The notes under the pieces are model-generated. The model was not told the origin of the DNA and searched no databases. It worked only from the letters and a program-made list of their open reading frames with translations. From Pseudomonadota bacterium (GTDB taxonomy: Bacteria > Desulfobacterota > Desulfobulbia > Desulfobulbales > Desulfocapsaceae), in assembly GCA_018820855.1 (NCBI GenBank), contig JAHJNL010000056.1, positions 1 through 60,447 of the forward strand: a stretch of 60,447 nt of DNA. The letters are read 5' to 3'. Both the position numbers and the translations under genes were made by a program. This document shows positions 2,675 through 57,575 of the stretch, piece after piece (position 1 is the stretch's first letter; each line of letters opens with the position of its first letter).

Positions 2675-3757
2675 TTAGTTGTCTTCACAGCAGACAGTAT
2701 AGCGGGAACAGAATTTTTCCACTTCGCCATTGATGAATTCCACAAAAGACGGATCAGGATGGACGTCCATTTTGAGAGCAAAGCAGGGGAGCTGGAAGGA
2801 ATTGCTCTGAAGTTTGATCAGGTCTTTTTCCGTTGTGATCAGGGCTGAAGCACCGCATCGTTCAGCCTGTTTATTGATTTTTTTGAGCAGACCCTGAGAG
2901 TAGGCCTGGTGATCTTTAAGGGCCATGAATCCGGAAAGGGATATGCCGTTTTCTTCCAGGCTATTGCGGAAGAGTTCAGGTTGGGCAATACCGCTGAAGC
3001 CATAAAGAGGTGTTGGCAGGCTGGACAGGTTGTGGAGTTCATCACTTCCTGCTTGGTTTGCCCCAACTGGCTGATACGTAGACAGGAAAACAGGTTTCTG
3101 CGGAAACCGTTGCTGCAGGAGTTCGCGGAATTGAGTGCAGCGGTCCCTGTTTGCATCTGTGATTCCGGTAAGCATAAAGCCATGGCAGCGCTTCAGGGCA
3201 GAAACCGGTTCTCTGAGATCGCCTCCGGGGAATACCCGACTGTTGCCGGCAAGCTTTGCCCCACTGAAGAGGACCAAGTCCAGATCGCGCTGCACCGAAA
3301 GGTGCTGGAATCCGTCATCAAGAAGAAGGATATTGCAGCCCAGCTTGTCGATGGCATGGCGGCAGGGGAGAATTTTCACAATACCGGTAAGAACCGGCAC
3401 CCCTGGAAGGCTTTTGGCTAGAAAACAGGGCTCATCGCCGGCTGCAGAGGCATCGAGGAAAATAGTTTTGCCATCAGAGACCACGTTGACCTTGTTTCCG
3501 GCAGCCCCTCCATAACCGCGGGAGATGATCGCCGGTCTGAGTCCTTTTTTCAGGAGCAAAGAGGCGAGATAGGCAACTACAGGTGTTTTGCCTGTGCCGC
3601 CCATGGTTAGATTACCGACAGAAATTATTGGAACAGGAAGTTGGTAACGATGTTTGAGTCCCTTGAGGTATAACGTTTCCCTGGCTTTCATGACAGCACT
3701 GTATAGAGGACTGAAAGGGCGGCCGAGGAAAAAGAGATTTGAAAAATTATCTGCCAT
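2675..3757 (-). CDS. lpxK: tetraacyldisaccharide 4'-kinase LpxK
   Basis: LpxK is the inner-membrane-associated kinase that phosphorylates the 4' position of the lipid A disaccharide using ATP. The 360-residue protein has an N-terminal hydrophobic/amphipathic region, then the Walker A loop TMGGTGKTP (51-59), the family motif SRGYGG (80-85) and DDGFQH (148-153), all typical of LpxK. Its length is near the family norm. It is divergent from the liv transporter, with 200 bp between them. lpxC, lpxK and lpxB lie within 10 kb of each other, so this is a dispersed lipid A locus. Confidence 0.96.
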   Translation of the reverse strand: MADNFSNLFFLGRPFSPLYSAVMKARETLYLKGLKHRYQLPVPIISVGNLTMGGTGKTPVVAYLASLLLKKGLRPAIISRGYGGAAGNKVNVVSDGKTIFLDASAAGDEPCFLAKSLPGVPVLTGIVKILPCRHAIDKLGCNILLLDDGFQHLSVQRDLDLVLFSGAKLAGNSRVFPGGDLREPVSALKRCHGFMLTGITDANRDRCTQFRELLQQRFPQKPVFLSTYQPVGANQAGSDELHNLSSLPTPLYGFSGIAQPELFRNSLEENGISLSGFMALKDHQAYSQGLLKKINKQAERCGASALITTEKDLIKLQSNSFQLPCFALKMDVHPDPSFVEFINGEVEKFCSRYTVCCEDN

Positions 3758-49910: not shown

Positions 49911-50825
49911 CTATACCGTCCGGATATCCATTTTATTGAGATCCATCTCTCCCAGTCCCATTTCTGCGGCAGCCCTGGTGGAATCTATCTCATCAGGTTT
50001 GAGGCCAAACAGGGTGGTGGCGTAGGCGTCGGCAGCCACCGGATCGGGTGAAGCCAGGACTGTATCGAGTACCTTAACGTCTTTGAGGCTACCGCCCTGG
50101 GGACCGTTGCGGAGAAGAATTCTGGTGGCGTCTATGATGGTCAGGTTGGCGCGGATTACCGTGTTCAGGTCGGCAAGGTTCTGTCCCATGTTGCCGTGGA
50201 TTTTGCCGCGGTTGCCGCCAATTACCCCCATGGTGTTCTTCATACCGAGGGTGAGTCGCGCCAAACCATGGTGTTTGGCCACCGGGATATTGATATAGCA
50301 GTCGGCCTGCAGGGCATCCTTGTAAAAGGACCACTTGTTGATGGATTTTCCTTTTTCAATGGTCACAGGAATGAATTTTCTCTCATCGATGTAGTTACAT
50401 TGAACCTTGCGGCTGTCCATGGCGTCAAGGGCCGGTTTGATGCCGCTGTTCACATAGCAGCGCCGTTCTTCGTTGCAGGTGCGGTCAAAGACCTGCACTG
50501 TTTTTGCTCCGGCCATAATGGCCAGTTCCACCACCGCCCTGACGATTTCCGGATGGGTGTTTGCTGCCTGTTCAGGACGTCGATCCCAGCCTATATTGGG
50601 TTTGATGACCACATGGTCGCCGGGTTTGACAAAGGCAGCCATTCCTCCCAGGGGCTGCAACACCGAAGATACCAGAGACGTATAGTTCTTTCCGGTGCCA
50701 ATGCTGAGTATCGGAGCCACTGCTTCAGCAGCCAGCAGATCGGGGGTGATCCGGAATACCGGTTCTGCGAGGAGGATGCCGCTGGAAAACACCGCTACCT
50801 GTTTTAAGAAATTGCGTCTGTCCAT
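49911..50825 (-). CDS. DUF362 protein with Tat signal
   Basis: This 304-residue protein starts with a twin-Arg signal (DRRNFLKQ, hydrophobic VAVFSSGILLAEPVF). DUF362 motifs follow: KPGDHVVIKPNIGW, MAGAKTVQVFDRTCNE, KHHGLARLTLGMKNTMG and the late DPVAADAYATTLFG. The family often pairs with ferredoxin-like proteins and is thought to act in redox or iron-sulfur chemistry; the reaction is unknown. It is the first gene of the two-gene unit. Confidence 0.88.
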   Translation of the reverse strand: MDRRNFLKQVAVFSSGILLAEPVFRITPDLLAAEAVAPILSIGTGKNYTSLVSSVLQPLGGMAAFVKPGDHVVIKPNIGWDRRPEQAANTHPEIVRAVVELAIMAGAKTVQVFDRTCNEERRCYVNSGIKPALDAMDSRKVQCNYIDERKFIPVTIEKGKSINKWSFYKDALQADCYINIPVAKHHGLARLTLGMKNTMGVIGGNRGKIHGNMGQNLADLNTVIRANLTIIDATRILLRNGPQGGSLKDVKVLDTVLASPDPVAADAYATTLFGLKPDEIDSTRAAAEMGLGEMDLNKMDIRTV

Positions 50826-51062
50826 CTTTACTCCTTTATGGTGGTCGGTCTTTCTTTATCTTATTCCTTACGCAGTAGAAAAAATTTATTATCAATATAC
50901 AATGGCAGGAAACACTACTAGTGTACGTCGGGTTCTTCTTAAATTCAACTGGAACTAGCAGGCTGGTATCTTAACGTGTGCACTCCCGGAGAGATATCTG
51001 TCGCCTGATTAGTAATACTTGGCTGTCAGCAGCTATTTCCCGAATTAGGCTACTCTGGATGC
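50826..51062. other. intergenic stretch, no gene seen
   Basis: Between the DUF362 gene and the nrfA terminator no convincing reading frame, tRNA or palindrome is seen. A promoter for the DUF362-polyferredoxin unit should lie here on the minus strand. Confidence 0.35.
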
Positions 51063-51103
51063 AAAAAGCCCCGGCCGGAATGAGTTCCGGTCAGGGCCTT
51101 TTT
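51063..51103. terminator. bidirectional terminator after nrfA
   Basis: AAAAAGCCCCGGCCGGAA (51063-51080) pairs with TTCCGGTCAGGGCCTTTTT (51085-51103), with one or two mismatches. On the minus strand it ends in TTTTTG and lies 33 bp after the nrfA stop. It also insulates the DUF362 operon. Confidence 0.85.
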
Positions 51104-51135
51104 GAACATCCGGTAACTCCGGGCAGAAAGAAGAT

Positions 51136-52623
51136 TTAATTTGAGTAAGAGCTTTTGTCACTCATGCCCTTGCGGGAGTCAAGGTTCAGAGTCCCGTTCT
51201 TGACTGCCTGTTGGTTCCACTCCTGAAGCAGGGTGGCCTTGAACTGCTGCTTTTCAGCGACCAGCTTGGCCAAAGGCACGCCGGCGAGTCCCTGGGCCTT
51301 TTCTTTGGTGGAAAAATCCGGAGCCATGTATTCAACAGCCCCATACTTGGCAAGGATCTTGACCAGTTTCAGACGTGCGGACTGAGCAATTTCATTAGAC
51401 ACGGCCAGTAGACGCAGGGTTTCTTCAGGGGCATGGAAAAAGGAAGCATGACTGGCGATGGAGTAATCCCAGCGCCACTGGCCGTGCCTGATATCCTTGA
51501 GAATATCGGCCATCTCAGCCTCAGTTGCTCCCAACTCCCAGGCTTTACCAGCTTCGAGATGGGCCTTGGCCAGGTTGTCCATGCCTATCTCCATCAACTG
51601 CTCCTTGCGCTGCAGTTTCTGTTCAACAATGGTTCGGAATTCTTCTTCAGACCTGTCATGACAGTTGAGGCAGGTGTCCCCGATATCGTTGAGCGGGCTC
51701 TGGAGGTTATGATCGGAGTACTTTTTGCCGTCTTTGTTCTTGCTTGGCATATGGCAGTCGGCGCAGGAGACATCACTGCGGGCATGAATACCGGTCTTGT
51801 AGAGCTCGTAACCGGGGTGTTGGGCTTTGAGCATCGGCGTCTTGCTGATTTGGTGGGTCCAGTCTTTGAACTCTATTTCATCATAGTATTTTTCCATGGC
51901 TTCGGCGCTGAGCCCATTGGCCCAGGGGAGAGTGACTACGGCTGCGGTCTTCTGGTTACCGTCTTTGTCAGTCCATTCCGTTTTCTTGAAGTAGTACTCA
52001 ACATGGCATTGGGCACAGGCCAGGGAACGCATGTCATTCCGGGTGATCTCCTCGAGCTTCACACCGCTGGCTACTAATGCTGTTTTAAGGTAGGGACGGG
52101 ACAGGGCCAACTCGCTGGTCTGACTGTCATGGCAGTCGGCACAGCCTATGGGATTGACGATCTCGTCACCGTACTTGGCCCATTTGCCGGTAAAGTACTC
52201 CATCTCACCTACTTTCTCCAGCATGCGCGGCACATCCGGAGATTTGCAGCTCCAGCAGGCCGTGGGCATCGGTCCGGTTATTGGTCCTACCGGGGCACCT
52301 GTACGCAGAGAGTTGATGTTGTCCTGGACGGCGTAGAAATGGCCGCGTGGGGCATTATAATCCTTGGCAAAACCATATCCGGCCCAGAGTACAGCCAGTT
52401 GCGGTTTTTTGGCGAGCATATCATCGATCCGTTCACTCTGGATTGTTTGTTTCCAGGAATCATACTGCAGAGGAAAATGCTGAGCCCAGGCCTCGTTATG
52501 GCTTTCCACACCTTCTTTTTTGACCATTGTCGTGGCCGTGGCCGTCATGGTGGTGACTGTCAGAGTCATAGCGGTAATAGCCAGTGTCGAGCCCATCAGA
52601 AATGCCTTGTACCTATTCTTCAT
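51136..52623 (-). CDS. nrfA: pentaheme cytochrome c nitrite reductase NrfA
   Basis: NrfA reduces nitrite to ammonium in the periplasm. I use the ATG at 52623, with AAGGAG 6 nt upstream; the longer frame has no such site. The 495-residue protein has a Sec signal and five haem motifs: CWSCK at 123-127 (active-site haem with Lys ligand), CADCH at 161, CAQCH at 203, CADCH at 287 and CLNCH at 318. HMPSKN and other NrfA residues around the fourth haem are present. No nrfH was found in the window, so its electron donor is elsewhere or different. Confidence 0.96.
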   Translation of the reverse strand: MKNRYKAFLMGSTLAITAMTLTVTTMTATATTMVKKEGVESHNEAWAQHFPLQYDSWKQTIQSERIDDMLAKKPQLAVLWAGYGFAKDYNAPRGHFYAVQDNINSLRTGAPVGPITGPMPTACWSCKSPDVPRMLEKVGEMEYFTGKWAKYGDEIVNPIGCADCHDSQTSELALSRPYLKTALVASGVKLEEITRNDMRSLACAQCHVEYYFKKTEWTDKDGNQKTAAVVTLPWANGLSAEAMEKYYDEIEFKDWTHQISKTPMLKAQHPGYELYKTGIHARSDVSCADCHMPSKNKDGKKYSDHNLQSPLNDIGDTCLNCHDRSEEEFRTIVEQKLQRKEQLMEIGMDNLAKAHLEAGKAWELGATEAEMADILKDIRHGQWRWDYSIASHASFFHAPEETLRLLAVSNEIAQSARLKLVKILAKYGAVEYMAPDFSTKEKAQGLAGVPLAKLVAEKQQFKATLLQEWNQQAVKNGTLNLDSRKGMSDKSSYSN

Positions 52624-53138
52624 TATTCTCCTTCTTCGGGTGAAATAACTGCAAATCACTTTCCAGCATTTTGCTTGAAAGCGGCTAATGAAATGATCCT
52701 CAGTAATGTGGACGCACATTGTAGGATCACTCGGCAAAATTGTGCACAGTGGAAATTCATTTGAAAAAATTGTTCATCTGTTTTCCCTGATTGGAGGAAC
52801 GACCTTTTTCATAAGAAGGTCGAGCACAGACACAAGTTTACTGTATCACACGTTCTGCATGCAAAAGAAGATATTTACACTCAAAGAAAAAAAAGAGGAA
52901 CGGCTTGATTATACGTATTATTTTTGTTGTATTGTGAATCTCTTGCCGTATGCGGTCAAGGGTGCAATACGGATATCGACAGTTTGGGCGGGGTACCTGG
53001 AGTTGGACTTGAAAACACACAGGAGCAATGGCTCTTTCCGGCATAAATGAGCAAAGCTGCACCAGTTGCAAAAGAACCGGGTGGACTTGTTTTCAGTGAC
53101 GCACCTTCTTGTTATTGAACTTGTGTTCATCTCATAGG
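52624..53138. other. intergenic stretch upstream of nrfA
   Basis: About 515 bp without a recognised gene. It contains GACCTT/AAGGTC near 52801-52820 as a short inverted repeat. The nrfA promoter should lie at its left end. I saw no FNR-type palindrome here. Confidence 0.35.
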
Positions 53139-53169
53139 AACGAGGGGGGGGACAGAAGCCCCCCTCGTT
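53139..53169. terminator. GC-rich hairpin after the cytochrome peroxidase gene
   Basis: AACGAGGGGGG (53139-53149) pairs with CCCCCCTCGTT (53159-53169). There is no T-run on the minus strand, so termination would be weak; it may be a 3' stabiliser. It includes a G8 run. Confidence 0.55.
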
Positions 53170-53189
53170 TGCCTGCCTACAGACTCTCC

Positions 53190-54569
53190 TTATAAAGAAC
53201 GCAGGAAGGCGACCAGGTCGGTCTTCTCCTGGTCCTTCAAGTGAAGTTCTTGGATAAGATTGAAATACTCCACCGTATCCTCAAGGGTGAAACATCTCCC
53301 GTCGTGCATGTAGGGGGGAGAGTCCTTGATACCTCGCAAGGGGAATGTCTTGATAGGACCGTCGTGGGCCATCATCATTCCATTTGCCATTTCCATCTTG
53401 TAAAACCGCTCAGCCTTGAGATCATGCATGCTGTTGTCTGTGTAGTAGGGAGCTGGGTGGCATGTGGAGCATCGGGCCTTGCCGTTGAAAATTTCTTCGC
53501 CGCGCAGTTCACTGGGGGTAGCCTTGGCTTGATCAAGTTCGCCATAAATGTCGAGCTTGGCTGCCGGTGGAAAATCAAGCAGTGCCAGGAATTCAGCCAT
53601 GAAATGTACCTGTGATCCTCTCTCAAGAACATTTACCCCTTTTTTTGCAGCCATGCACTGGTCGCCGTCGAAGTAGGCTGCGCGCTGCTCAAATTCGGTG
53701 AAGTCTTCTACTGTTTTCAATGCCCGCTGGGAACCGAAGAGTCGCTGCACATTCACTCCTCGCAGGGTAGGGGTTTCGATGCGATGTCTGAATTCCTGCG
53801 GCCTGATGTCGCCAACAAGATGGTTTGCACCGTTGGTATGACCATTGGCATGACAGTCGAAACAGGTTACACCCAGACTGGGCCTGTCGGTACGCCGGTC
53901 TTCTGTCGCGTTGAATTGCTGTTGGGGAAACTGAGTTACCAGGAGGCGCAGGCCTTCGAGCTGTTTGGGATTCAGGATACCGTTAAAAATCTCATAGTAA
54001 TTGTCGATGGTAACGAGTCGTCCCTTTGCCACATCACCAAGGTCGGGGCGGGTGGTCAGGAAAATTGCCGGGGCTGGGTCCGGCAGGATATGCTCGGGCA
54101 GATCGAAATCCAAGTCAAAGCGAACCAGCCGCGGTAAAGCCTTTGTGATCATCTCCGGGAAGAGCATGCCTCCCTCTGCGTGATCAGCAAACGGCAGGGG
54201 TTTGTACGGGAACACTCCCTTTGCTTTGATCTGTTCGGGGGTCATTTTGTCGAGAGCGCCCCAGGTTGATCCTTGAAGGTTAGCTGTCGGTCCAAGTGGG
54301 AGGGGCTTTCCTCCTGACATGACGTCTTTGGCGGTCTTCTTTGCAAGGTCATAGCGTGAGGTTAATAACTCCTTTTGCAGGTTGGCGCGCTCACCTTTCA
54401 CCGCCATGCGTGATGCTTTGATTTGATCAAAGGTCTCGGTCTGATTCGTTGGTCCATAGCTGGAAATGACTTTCCCCTGCTGTGCAAAAACGACCGTAGA
54501 CGTGGCCCCTACAAGCAACATAATGCAGACTTTAATCGACTTAATAAGCAGATTATTTTTTTTGTTCAT
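53190..54569 (-). CDS. diheme cytochrome c peroxidase family protein
   Basis: This exported protein (459 residues from the ATG at 54569, which has AAAGGA upstream) has a Sec signal (SIKVCIMLLVGATSTVVFAQ) and two haem motifs, CFDCH at 236 and CSTCH at 367, with the MauG/CCP pattern around the second (GEEIFNGKARCSTCHPAPYYTDNS, cited in part) and FPLRGIKDSPPYMHDGR near the C-terminus. Bacterial CCPs reduce peroxide; relatives in Desulfobacterota can be electron-transfer cytochromes. A GEMM-I riboswitch with its terminator lies about 430 bp upstream in the same direction. Confidence 0.88.
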   Translation of the reverse strand: MNKKNNLLIKSIKVCIMLLVGATSTVVFAQQGKVISSYGPTNQTETFDQIKASRMAVKGERANLQKELLTSRYDLAKKTAKDVMSGGKPLPLGPTANLQGSTWGALDKMTPEQIKAKGVFPYKPLPFADHAEGGMLFPEMITKALPRLVRFDLDFDLPEHILPDPAPAIFLTTRPDLGDVAKGRLVTIDNYYEIFNGILNPKQLEGLRLLVTQFPQQQFNATEDRRTDRPSLGVTCFDCHANGHTNGANHLVGDIRPQEFRHRIETPTLRGVNVQRLFGSQRALKTVEDFTEFEQRAAYFDGDQCMAAKKGVNVLERGSQVHFMAEFLALLDFPPAAKLDIYGELDQAKATPSELRGEEIFNGKARCSTCHPAPYYTDNSMHDLKAERFYKMEMANGMMMAHDGPIKTFPLRGIKDSPPYMHDGRCFTLEDTVEYFNLIQELHLKDQEKTDLVAFLRSL

Positions 54570-54996
54570 TTCACAGTCCTTTGTTTTTTTTATAGTTGTC
54601 TTTCTGACCACTCGTTACCAAACAGCTTTTTTCACATCACCTCCTTGTTTTTTTATATTTGATGAGCAGAAAAGTACTCCTGTAAACTTAGTCAGCTCAA
54701 GGTCGTAACTGATGGCACTGAAGCGATAGCATGCAATATTATCTCCGCAGGATTCATGAACGGTGTACCTGATACTTGCTGATAGAGGTGAATTGTTTTG
54801 GTGGATCCGCCTTACTCGGGTATTGGTGGAACCGTTTCAACATGAAAAGAGATAAAGAAAAAAAGTGAATATCTGTGTGACGCTGCCTGTTCCTTCTCTG
54901 TCTTCTTGTTAGAGGCCTGATACACAACTGTTGTTAGTATGGTGTTTCTTCTGGATATCGATTTTGGTGAGGTGGATTGTCCTTCTTCGGCAAAAT
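54570..54996. other. leader region between the riboswitch and the cytochrome gene
   Basis: This ~430-bp stretch would form the mRNA leader if transcription starts upstream of the riboswitch. It has no clear gene; a strong AAGGAGG is followed only by a six-codon frame near 54640. Its length between a riboswitch terminator and the start codon is unusual. Confidence 0.4.
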
Positions 54997-55034
54997 AAAA
55001 AAAAACCGAACCACCTCATTGCAAGGTAGCCCGG
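54997..55034 (-). terminator. terminator overlapping the riboswitch aptamer
   Basis: On the minus strand CCGGGCTACCT (55034-55024) pairs with AGGTGGTTCGG (55016-55006), 11 bp with three G-U pairs, followed by T9 (55005-54997). The first arm is also the 3' part of the GEMM-I aptamer, so aptamer folding should block the terminator, giving an ON switch. Confidence 0.85.
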
Positions 55035-55095
55035 CTGTCTGATGCAGATCCGTAGCTTTCCGTCCCTGCCTCACGACAGGTTTGGCATTGTCTTG
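55021..55095 (-). promoter_or_regulatory. GEMM-I (cyclic dinucleotide) riboswitch
   Basis: The minus strand shows the GEMM-I core in order: CAAACC, hairpin CCTGTC-GTGA-GGCAGG with a GNRA tetraloop, GGGACGGAAAGCTACGGATC, a second stem closing with AGACAGCCGGGCTACC. These match the conserved bases of c-di-GMP-I/cGAMP riboswitches. The discriminating base upstream of CAAACC cannot be assigned by eye, so the ligand is c-di-GMP or 3',3'-cGAMP. The downstream gene is a c-type cytochrome, as with cGAMP riboswitches in Geobacter. Confidence 0.85.
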
Positions 55096-55279: not shown

Positions 55280-56953
55280 CTACTTTGAGGAAGTGGGCGT
55301 TTCGTCTTTTTTGGGCTGTTCTTGGATCAGTTTATCCGGAAGTGCTCCCAGCTCCAGGGCCGGGCTCCAATTGAGCCAGGCATCATCCGCGTCGGAATGG
55401 AGGGTGAAGTGGTGACCGTTGGCTACACGGTTTCCCATATCCTCTTTTTCCGGGGTACTGAACGAGATTCCTCCATCCAGAATTGCTGCCATGGATTCGG
55501 TACTGATTTTCATCGATGTCATCAATCCTCCCTTGATGCGGAGGCCGCTGATGTTCCAGAACATGGTATTTTCCCGAATCAGGTTAACGTAGGGTTCATG
55601 GATGTTGAGATAGATGAGCACATTCTGGCCGGTGGCTGAGAGTTCGTAGCCGGTTGTATGACCGACCTGTACCTGGCGATAATAAACCGGTTTGTCGTAT
55701 CCGAGGGAGCCAAGACGGTCTGTTTGCAGGATGAGGTTCAGTCCGTTACTCTCAGGCAGATTTACCGGTCTTGCATCGCGTACCTGAAATACTTTTGCAG
55801 GCTTACCACTGCCGGGGATCAGGTTAAGATAAGGTCCCCTGATTACCGTATCAAGGTTGGAGACCCCAGCCAGACTGAACCTGGGGCTGACAGCCCATAT
55901 ATAGGTATTTTCGTTGAGCAGGCGATTCAGGGATTTATCGATATGGGCTTTTGCCCTGACAGTTTTGAGATCATCCTCAAGCTCTATCTGGGTAACTGCT
56001 CCGATTTTAACGCCCTGATAGCGGATGTCAGCACCGGTCTCCAGTCCGTGATCAACAGAAAAGGTAAGCTGTATTTCAATGTCATCGGCTTGTTGAGCCG
56101 TTTGCTGGTCTTTGAAAAGAGGAAATTCTTTTGTCTTGTCGTCAATTGTTTTCCCTCCGGGAACGGTTTCCACACTGACACCACCCCTGATAATGGCCTT
56201 GATCGGTTCGACCTGTAAGGAAATTTTTGGCAGATCTGCCTGGAGCTGAATACCGCTGCTGAGATAAAAACGACTGTTTGTGGTGATATGACTCATGAAT
56301 TGCGGATAGATGATGATCTTGGTTTCTATGGAACCATCTTTCTGCAGGGTTTCGGAGATTACCTCTCCCACTTCAACTTTTTTGAAGAGTACAGGAGAAG
56401 TCGGAGAAAGGGAAGTGGAGTGGGGGGATTGCAGGGTCAGGTGCAGTCCTGGTACGCGTTCCGAGAGAGGCGGTGGTTCGTCAAGGGCGTTAAAAAAATG
56501 GGATTGATCTGTTTTGATTCCGGGCTGAACTTCAAAGTAACTGCCGCTGACCAGAGTATCAAGCCCTGTGATGCGATTCATTGATACTTCTGGGCGGACT
56601 ACCCAGAATTTGGTGTCGCTTGTCAGCTTTTCCTTTGCTTCTTTGGCCATTTCTATCCGGGCGTCAATGTGTTGCAGGTCAGGAGTCACTTGAAATCCCT
56701 TCAATGTTCCCACAGGGAGTCCTTTGAACATCACTTGAGTTTTGCCGATAGTGAGACCGTTGGCATCTTTTATCCGTACTGTGATCATTATTCCGGATTC
56801 CTGGAAATCTTTGTAAAGGAGCCAGCCTCCGATGAGAAGGGCGACAAGGGGAAGGATCCAGATGGGAGAAATGCCTTTTTTCGTTTTAACGATTGGACGT
56901 TCCATAATATGTGTTGAGGTAGAGGCTGAAGGTTGATGTTTGTTGTCAGGCAT
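55280..56953 (-). CDS. pqiB: PqiB-like MCE/MlaD-family protein
   Basis: This 557-residue inner-membrane protein has one N-terminal helix (ISPIWILPLVALLIGGWLLY) and MCE domains in the periplasm: GITVRIKDANGLTIGKTQVMFKGLPVG-like (residues about 75-95, cited in parts: DANGLTIGKTQVMFKGLPVG), then GADIRYQGVKIG and a third. MCE proteins form hexamers that carry lipids between membranes. I start at the ATG at 56953. Two PqiA-like genes precede it with overlaps, giving pqiA-pqiA-pqiB. No PqiC lipoprotein gene follows. Confidence 0.9.
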   Translation of the reverse strand: MPDNKHQPSASTSTHIMERPIVKTKKGISPIWILPLVALLIGGWLLYKDFQESGIMITVRIKDANGLTIGKTQVMFKGLPVGTLKGFQVTPDLQHIDARIEMAKEAKEKLTSDTKFWVVRPEVSMNRITGLDTLVSGSYFEVQPGIKTDQSHFFNALDEPPPLSERVPGLHLTLQSPHSTSLSPTSPVLFKKVEVGEVISETLQKDGSIETKIIIYPQFMSHITTNSRFYLSSGIQLQADLPKISLQVEPIKAIIRGGVSVETVPGGKTIDDKTKEFPLFKDQQTAQQADDIEIQLTFSVDHGLETGADIRYQGVKIGAVTQIELEDDLKTVRAKAHIDKSLNRLLNENTYIWAVSPRFSLAGVSNLDTVIRGPYLNLIPGSGKPAKVFQVRDARPVNLPESNGLNLILQTDRLGSLGYDKPVYYRQVQVGHTTGYELSATGQNVLIYLNIHEPYVNLIRENTMFWNISGLRIKGGLMTSMKISTESMAAILDGGISFSTPEKEDMGNRVANGHHFTLHSDADDAWLNWSPALELGALPDKLIQEQPKKDETPTSSK

Positions 56954-57575
56954 CCCAGAGTAGCCTGGGGTCAAAGGTCATGGCAGCAAACATGGAACAC
57001 ATGACCACAGCAGTAAAATACGTGGCAGCAGGGCCGGCCTGGGTTGAGGTGAAGGTGCCAAAATCAACGAGTGCTGACATTAATGCGATGACAAAGATAT
57101 CGAGCATGGACCAGCGACCGACAAATTGAATAAAGCGAAAAATTATGGTCTTATGACGAAGCCAGGTCTTCCATTTGAATCGGATGGAAAGGAGAATAAG
57201 GATCATGCCGATTATTTTAAAGAGGGGGACCAGAACAGAAGCAATGAAAATAATGAGGCCTATGCCGTATTCTCCTGAATGAAAAAAATAGAGGATGCCG
57301 TCCATGATAGTCGAATGTTCCTGGGAGCCCAAAAAATCTACACGCATGATGGGCAGCAGGTTTGCCGGAAAAAGGAGGATGGCAGCTGTGAGAATCAGAG
57401 CCCAGGTTCGTGGCACAGCATTGATGTTTCGATAGTGTATGGAGGCGTCACAGCGTGGACAGGCCAGGACACCATGTTCAGGTGTCTTGTCTGCAGTAAC
57501 CAGTTTTCCGCAGTCGTGGCAGCACATGAGTCCTGCAGCCATTGCCGTTTGTCTGGAGTGGAATTCAGTTGTCAT
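56946..57575 (-). CDS. PqiA-like membrane protein (second half-type)
   Basis: This 209-residue protein starts with two CxxC pairs (CCHDCGK and CPRC, a zinc ribbon) and then has four helices, with LFPANLLPIMRVDFLG and VLVPLFKIIGMILILLS, and RWSMLDIFVIALMSALVDFG as PqiA hallmarks. In E. coli PqiA is a single chain with two such halves. It overlaps pqiB by 8 bp and the previous half by 11 bp. Confidence 0.88.
   Translation of the reverse strand: MTTEFHSRQTAMAAGLMCCHDCGKLVTADKTPEHGVLACPRCDASIHYRNINAVPRTWALILTAAILLFPANLLPIMRVDFLGSQEHSTIMDGILYFFHSGEYGIGLIIFIASVLVPLFKIIGMILILLSIRFKWKTWLRHKTIIFRFIQFVGRWSMLDIFVIALMSALVDFGTFTSTQAGPAATYFTAVVMCSMFAAMTFDPRLLWDA

Follow-up and report, generated by a model that had tools for sequence, protein, structure and literature searches.

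The window, the whole stretch of 60,447 nt analysed here, carries on its minus strand a sequence resembling a GEMM-I riboswitch, followed downstream by a gene for a diheme c-type cytochrome. The locus raised the question of whether this element is a riboswitch, which ligand it would sense and whether the cytochrome is its target. The riboswitch is genuine; it is an ordinary representative of an established class, and its type of mechanism is likewise known. At a probability of about 65%, we read it as a c-di-GMP-I riboswitch that turns transcription ON, with read-through into the cytochrome gene and possibly into the gene for the nitrite reductase NrfA.

The aptamer lies at 55021-55095 on the minus strand. 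In a cmscan of the 60-kb window it passed the gathering cut-offs of two Rfam models, RF03167 (c-di-GMP-I-GGC; 63.5 bits against 59, E 1.1e-12) and RF01051 (59.4 bits against 35). The RF01051 search had been proposed as a check in the preliminary description, and both models bore out its claim of a GEMM-I riboswitch. At gathering thresholds, the window gave no further match except one from the same clan that overlapped and scored lower. Model R1 scored the aptamer at 85.6 bits, the window copy being among the 12 sequences from which R1 was built.

The core motifs that had been claimed were all found on the minus strand. These were CAAACC at 55084-55079, the P2 hairpin at 55065-55080 with a GUGA (GNRA) tetraloop, seen in the sequence and in the pairs of the covariance model (CM) alignment, GGGACGGAAAGCTACGG at 55066-55050 and AGCCGGGCTACC at 55036-55025. 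Across 43 aligned copies, 96.5% of the pairs in the aptamer structure were standard, and 15 of the 19 pairs showed changes on both sides. Neither covariation value was matched by any of 500 shuffles, in an alignment fitted to the model, with a bias in its favor.

A terminator stem-loop was predicted at 55004-55036 (minus strand) and was contained in the minimum free energy (MFE) fold of the full switch (-37.9 kcal/mol). Its 3' arm lies at 55015-55004, and a T9 tract occupies 54997-55005. The terminator segment folded at -20 kcal/mol (z -4.39), and none of 200 shuffles was equally stable. The stem and the T9 agreed with the preliminary description; its exact count of 11 pairs did not, as the programs gave 12 to 15.

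The 5' arm of this terminator, 55036-55021, is the 3' strand of the aptamer, an overlap of 16 nt that had likewise been claimed. Because the last 16 nt of the aptamer form this arm, the two folds are mutually exclusive, and ligand should switch transcription ON. The same logic had been put forward before, and as a prediction it fits the overlap and a layout like that of the pilM riboswitch. Without ligand, the aptamer 3' strand would pair into the terminator and RNA polymerase would stop at about 54997. If c-di-GMP were bound co-transcriptionally, it would keep this strand in P3, and the polymerase would read on through the 427-nt leader to transcribe the diheme cytochrome gene and possibly nrfA. 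A sigma-70-like promoter was looked for 5' of the switch on the same strand and not found.

Folding also predicted a competing hairpin at 55035-55079 (minus strand), formed by the P2 strands with the apical and 3' parts of P3. This hairpin (55079-55035) would exclude the aptamer fold and would be compatible with the adjacent terminator. The MFE fold of the window aptamer, at -26.7 kcal/mol, contained none of the 18 native pairs; the native fold reached -14.9 kcal/mol as the CM fold, or -19.4 kcal/mol with 18 pairs in our own model. At a related locus, L056, the MFE of the counterpart RNA retained all 19 native pairs. Both results are what a decaying window copy would give, in which the hairpin blocks the aptamer and transcription terminates whatever the ligand.

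We nevertheless consider such decay quite unlikely. The aptamer and terminator are more conserved, relative to L056, than their surroundings, and P1b and P2 were predicted to fold during synthesis of the first 50 nt. An MFE without any native pair was found in 4 of 65 copies, the window being joined by L148, L196 and L013, the last a doubtful, weak match of 27.5 bits. The energy model, moreover, excludes tertiary contacts and the ligand. From the early prediction of P1b and P2 and from what lies outside the energy model, the competing hairpin may tune the switch rather than disable it. A doubtful extension of this would have a c-di-GMP ON switch, with its ligand threshold raised by the extra hairpin, govern the periplasmic MauG/BCCP-like diheme cytochrome and possibly the nitrite reductase. 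The redox gene would then be on only at high c-di-GMP.

The ligand pocket of this class includes the bases G20, A47 and C92 in Vc2 numbering, and the cGAMP riboswitches (GEMM-Ib) are marked by A at position 20. The window aptamer has G at this position, not the A of GEMM-Ib. By alignment column, all 12 aptamers of the genome, the window copy included, have G20 and A47; the reading of C92, in the 3' CTACC, was made by eye. Position 46 had changed to G jointly with the change of 21 to C. The genome contained 42 GGDEF matches (PF00990) in 40 stretches, six of which could not be aligned. At the diagnostic residue, which is Asp in canonical GGDEF enzymes and Ser in Hypr enzymes according to PMC6456294, all 34 readable domains had Asp. 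From G20, A47 and these Asp residues, the likely ligand is c-di-GMP, not cGAMP.

The C21-G46 pair is probably shared with the Geobacter cGAMP aptamers. The platform of the window copy is also the same as that of pilM, a cGAMP switch, and the position equivalent to G20 is presented in PMC9262584 as a selectivity factor and not a hard filter. These points would favor cGAMP sensing of the kind known from the Geobacter GEMM-Ib switches, which the preliminary description had brought up. Set against G20 in 12 of 12 aptamers of this genome, and a Hypr-type residue in none of the 34 readable GGDEF domains, we regard it as highly improbable and did not retain it.

The subclass was judged by position 47. 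The consensus lines read GACGCAAA in RF01051 and GACGCGAA in RF03167, and the window reads GACGGAAA. The use of G47 as the mark of the GGC class is our reading of the two consensus lines. Since position 47 is A in the window, the GGC-marking base is absent, and the GGC class was rejected although RF03167 scored best. All 13 RF03167 matches of the genome had A47, and 12 had C-G as the 21-46 pair. On the strength of A47 in all 13, these apparent GGC matches would be better read as ordinary c-di-GMP-I aptamers.

The genome searched (4.82 Mb, 106 contigs) contained 12 RF01051 matches, all above the cut-off, and 13 RF03167 matches, 11 of them above. Among the 56 genomes searched, 33, including this one, had an RF01051 match, and the richest three had 21, 21 and 24. 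We read 65 copies, of which 64 were distinct. They comprised the 12 of this genome with the weak L013, one from each of 29 other genomes including G006 (the genome of L056), G006 being represented by 19 of its 21 in all, and two tandem pairs. In these pairs, each aptamer has its own overlapping terminator (L198 of G023, 2105-2559; L199 of G018, 2533-2735); many tandem c-di-GMP-I switches have been described (PMC9481103).

Most of the distinct copies (53) were G20/C21-G46/A47; the others were G20/G21-C46/A47 (8), A20/G21-C46/A47 (2) and G20/U21-G46/A47 (1). Terminators of -12 kcal/mol or better with the 5' arm within the aptamer 3' end were scored as overlapping. Such a terminator was found in 50 of 53 C-G copies, 0 of 10 G-C copies and 0 of 1 U-G copy, against 28/1060, 4/200 and 0/20, respectively, for shuffled 3' flanks. 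Because the copies are related, this is one shared design and not 50 independent cases. The design of the window switch, with aptamer and terminator overlapping, is common to most of the C21-G46 relatives. The orientation of the 21-46 pair tracked the expression platform (for example, L001-L012 compared with L147-L152), probably through shared ancestry.

The predicted leader extends from the end of the terminator to the likely ATG at 54569 (54570-54996, minus strand). Its length of 427 nt is close to the 430 nt stated earlier. No open reading frame of at least 80 aa was found in it on the minus strand. A structured leader was ruled out, as 54560-54996 (437 nt) folded no better than shuffles (z +1.75). 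Two blocks, 54916-54882 and 54865-54838 (minus strand), were nearly identical to L056, the whole leader being about 69% identical; they consist of purine and pyrimidine tracts that are partly complementary. The stretch containing both gave z -0.33, with 73 of 200 shuffles folding as well. A repeated leader was also rejected. In the four genomes searched for it, there was one match in this genome, matches at three places of a single locus in G006, and none in G003 and G023. Of 20 genomes from the genus, only this one and G006 had matches reaching the leader.

The predicted target, at 53190-54569 on the minus strand, encodes a 459-aa diheme c-type cytochrome with a signal-like N-terminus, its start being the ATG that aligned with L056. 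It is the next long reading frame downstream on the same strand, as described before, and its two CxxCH motifs were invariant in 32 relatives. No Pfam family matched at 1e-3, and a search relaxed to E 10 gave only weak cytochrome matches, the best at 0.032. The best NCBIfam model, MauG, gave 47.6 bits against a cut-off of 443.85, and NCBIfam scores were far under the cut-offs in all 32 members scanned (cut-offs as shown for the window protein). The C-terminal third aligned with the diheme peroxidases of PDB entries 1iqc, 3o5c and 1nml. The AlphaFold model, made with 32 sequences, was too poor for any conclusion on the fold (mean pLDDT 50.0, pTM 0.44). By these comparisons the protein is only a distant relative of MauG and the diheme peroxidases (BCCP). 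The earlier label of peroxidase thus stood at the level of the superfamily and failed at that of the family, where matches either fell far short of the cut-offs or covered the C-terminal third alone.

Relatives of the cytochrome were numerous in the genome collection; the best 80 of 513 were 62-94% identical and came from many phyla. A superoxide-dismutase-like gene was near the relative in 12 of the 80 loci (1e-10), at varied positions. In L057, such a gene (named by eye) lies directly upstream, at 2904-3755 (+). NrfA was near the cytochrome in 1 of the 80.

In the window, the ammonia-forming nitrite reductase NrfA lies at 51136-52737 (minus strand; NF008339, 683.6 bits against a cut-off of 595). 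The reading frame as listed begins with TTG, and the true start is probably further in. A scan of 50800-53250 found no terminator-like site between the cytochrome and NrfA on the minus strand, and one weak promoter-like site at 52959-52931. From this, co-transcription is possible, and NrfA is a possible member of the cytochrome transcription unit. In L056, two other genes lie between them. The upstream neighbor, outside the switch, is a PqiB-like MCE protein at 55280-56974 (minus strand), which gave 156.6 bits with the MlaD Pfam family and 402.5 bits, below the cut-off of 525, with the PqiB model.

The link between switch and cytochrome was examined at 84 other cytochrome loci. Eighty of these belong to the collection, with 1 kb or more of upstream sequence in 65 and under 1 kb in 15; four came from relatives, among them L137, a second occurrence of the L056 locus whose flank is too short to include the switch. 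The aptamer model found a copy at L056 only, 2.5 kb upstream and with a beta-propeller gene in between. No conserved switch-cytochrome link was found at these loci, the count being 1 in 84. The cytochrome is still likely to be the selected target of the switch, with the uncertainty that the same count brings. In L057 and L138, where the aptamer model found no switch, homology begins about 80 nt 5' of the cytochrome start. As these 80 nt are shared by loci in which no switch was found, a separate promoter may serve the cytochrome gene.

L056 and G006:C16 are one and the same stretch of contig. The order in L056 is a pqiB-like gene, the switch, a long leader, 54 nt matching the cytochrome start, and the gene of an SBBP beta-propeller protein of 532 aa; then the leader end is repeated, and the full cytochrome comes last. 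Thus, the start of the same cytochrome gene is found downstream of the switch there too. Identity between the window and L056 was 67/75 in the aptamer and 21/23 in the terminator arm. The upstream stretch gave 107/175, the closing part of the pqiB-like gene 53/71, and the two main stretches of the leader 80/116 and 156/226; near the cytochrome start, where just 19 bases could be aligned, 17 agreed.

Direct repeats of 83 nt (82%) and 54 nt (89%) flank the SBBP gene in L056. With the order of switch, SBBP gene and cytochrome, these repeats allow a working switch whose proper target is the secreted SBBP protein. Recombination between them would have removed the SBBP gene here, and the cytochrome would have come to lie behind the switch by chance. 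In line with this, the L003 switch of this genome precedes a matching SBBP reading frame, and many genes downstream of this class resemble surface proteins. The first repeat of L056, however, holds the first 54 nt around the cytochrome start, suggesting an arrival of the SBBP gene between a switch and a cytochrome that had until then been neighbors, and the locus was seen in two genomes only. We interpreted the arrangement as an older switch-cytochrome pair with a probable SBBP insertion in G006. Deletion here is the main alternative, and SBBP as the proper target is a rather unlikely one.

Nine proteins behind the other switches of this genome were scanned with Pfam. Six matched, being winged-helix domain, DUF6812, T2SSE-type ATPase, Hcp, TSP3/MopE-motif and carboxypeptidase-regulatory proteins; the other three had no Pfam family. 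When the longest reading frame starting within 1.3 kb downstream was taken, a crude choice of gene, CxxCH was present in 4 of 65 copies: the window (2), L163 (6), L167 (9) and L166 (1). GEMM-I switches upstream of multi-CxxCH frames thus occur in G023 (L163) and G052 (L167). Near the L001 switch of this genome and a transposase-like frame, a reading frame on contig C82 (L225 2473-3111, +) has a signal-like N-terminus and, by eye, a ubiquitin-like stretch. With the window switch, the reach of c-di-GMP would widen from the pilus and surface-protein genes behind the other switches to a periplasmic redox protein.

According to PMC6456294, GEMM-Ib switches in Geobacter stand before cytochrome, pilus and polysaccharide genes. 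In G. sulfurreducens, 17 GEMM-I switches have been counted. The available part of PMC10599522 draws no link between a c-di-GMP riboswitch and cytochrome c peroxidase. In the literature searched, outside which most subscription papers fall, titles and abstracts gave no c-di-GMP riboswitch before a cytochrome c peroxidase, and no GEMM-I report was found for Desulfobulb- taxa. With the present case, a periplasmic heme protein would join the targets of c-di-GMP riboswitches. This genome and G006 also form a related pair with a different gene directly behind a switch. The predicted target is lineage-specific; the class and the type of mechanism are already known.

With the c-di-GMP-I aptamers of RF01051, the window copy shares a score above the cut-off, the core motifs, the GNRA-capped P2, G20 and A47, and it differs in the 21-46 pair, which is C-G instead of the G-C of the model. 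RF03167, the model of the c-di-GMP-I-GGC class mentioned in PMC11124144, is its best-scoring Rfam model, but has G in the consensus at position 47, where the window has A as in RF01051. The encoded protein shares two CxxCH motifs and an alignable C-terminal third with the diheme cytochrome c peroxidases and MauG, while falling outside Pfam at 1e-3 and far below the NCBIfam cut-offs. The closest parallel in layout is the cGAMP-responsive pilM riboswitch of Geobacter metallireducens, an ON switch with mutually exclusive aptamer and terminator in which the aptamer 3' strand is likewise used by the terminator (PMC9262584). The window switch differs from it in its predicted ligand, c-di-GMP, and in its downstream gene, a cytochrome.
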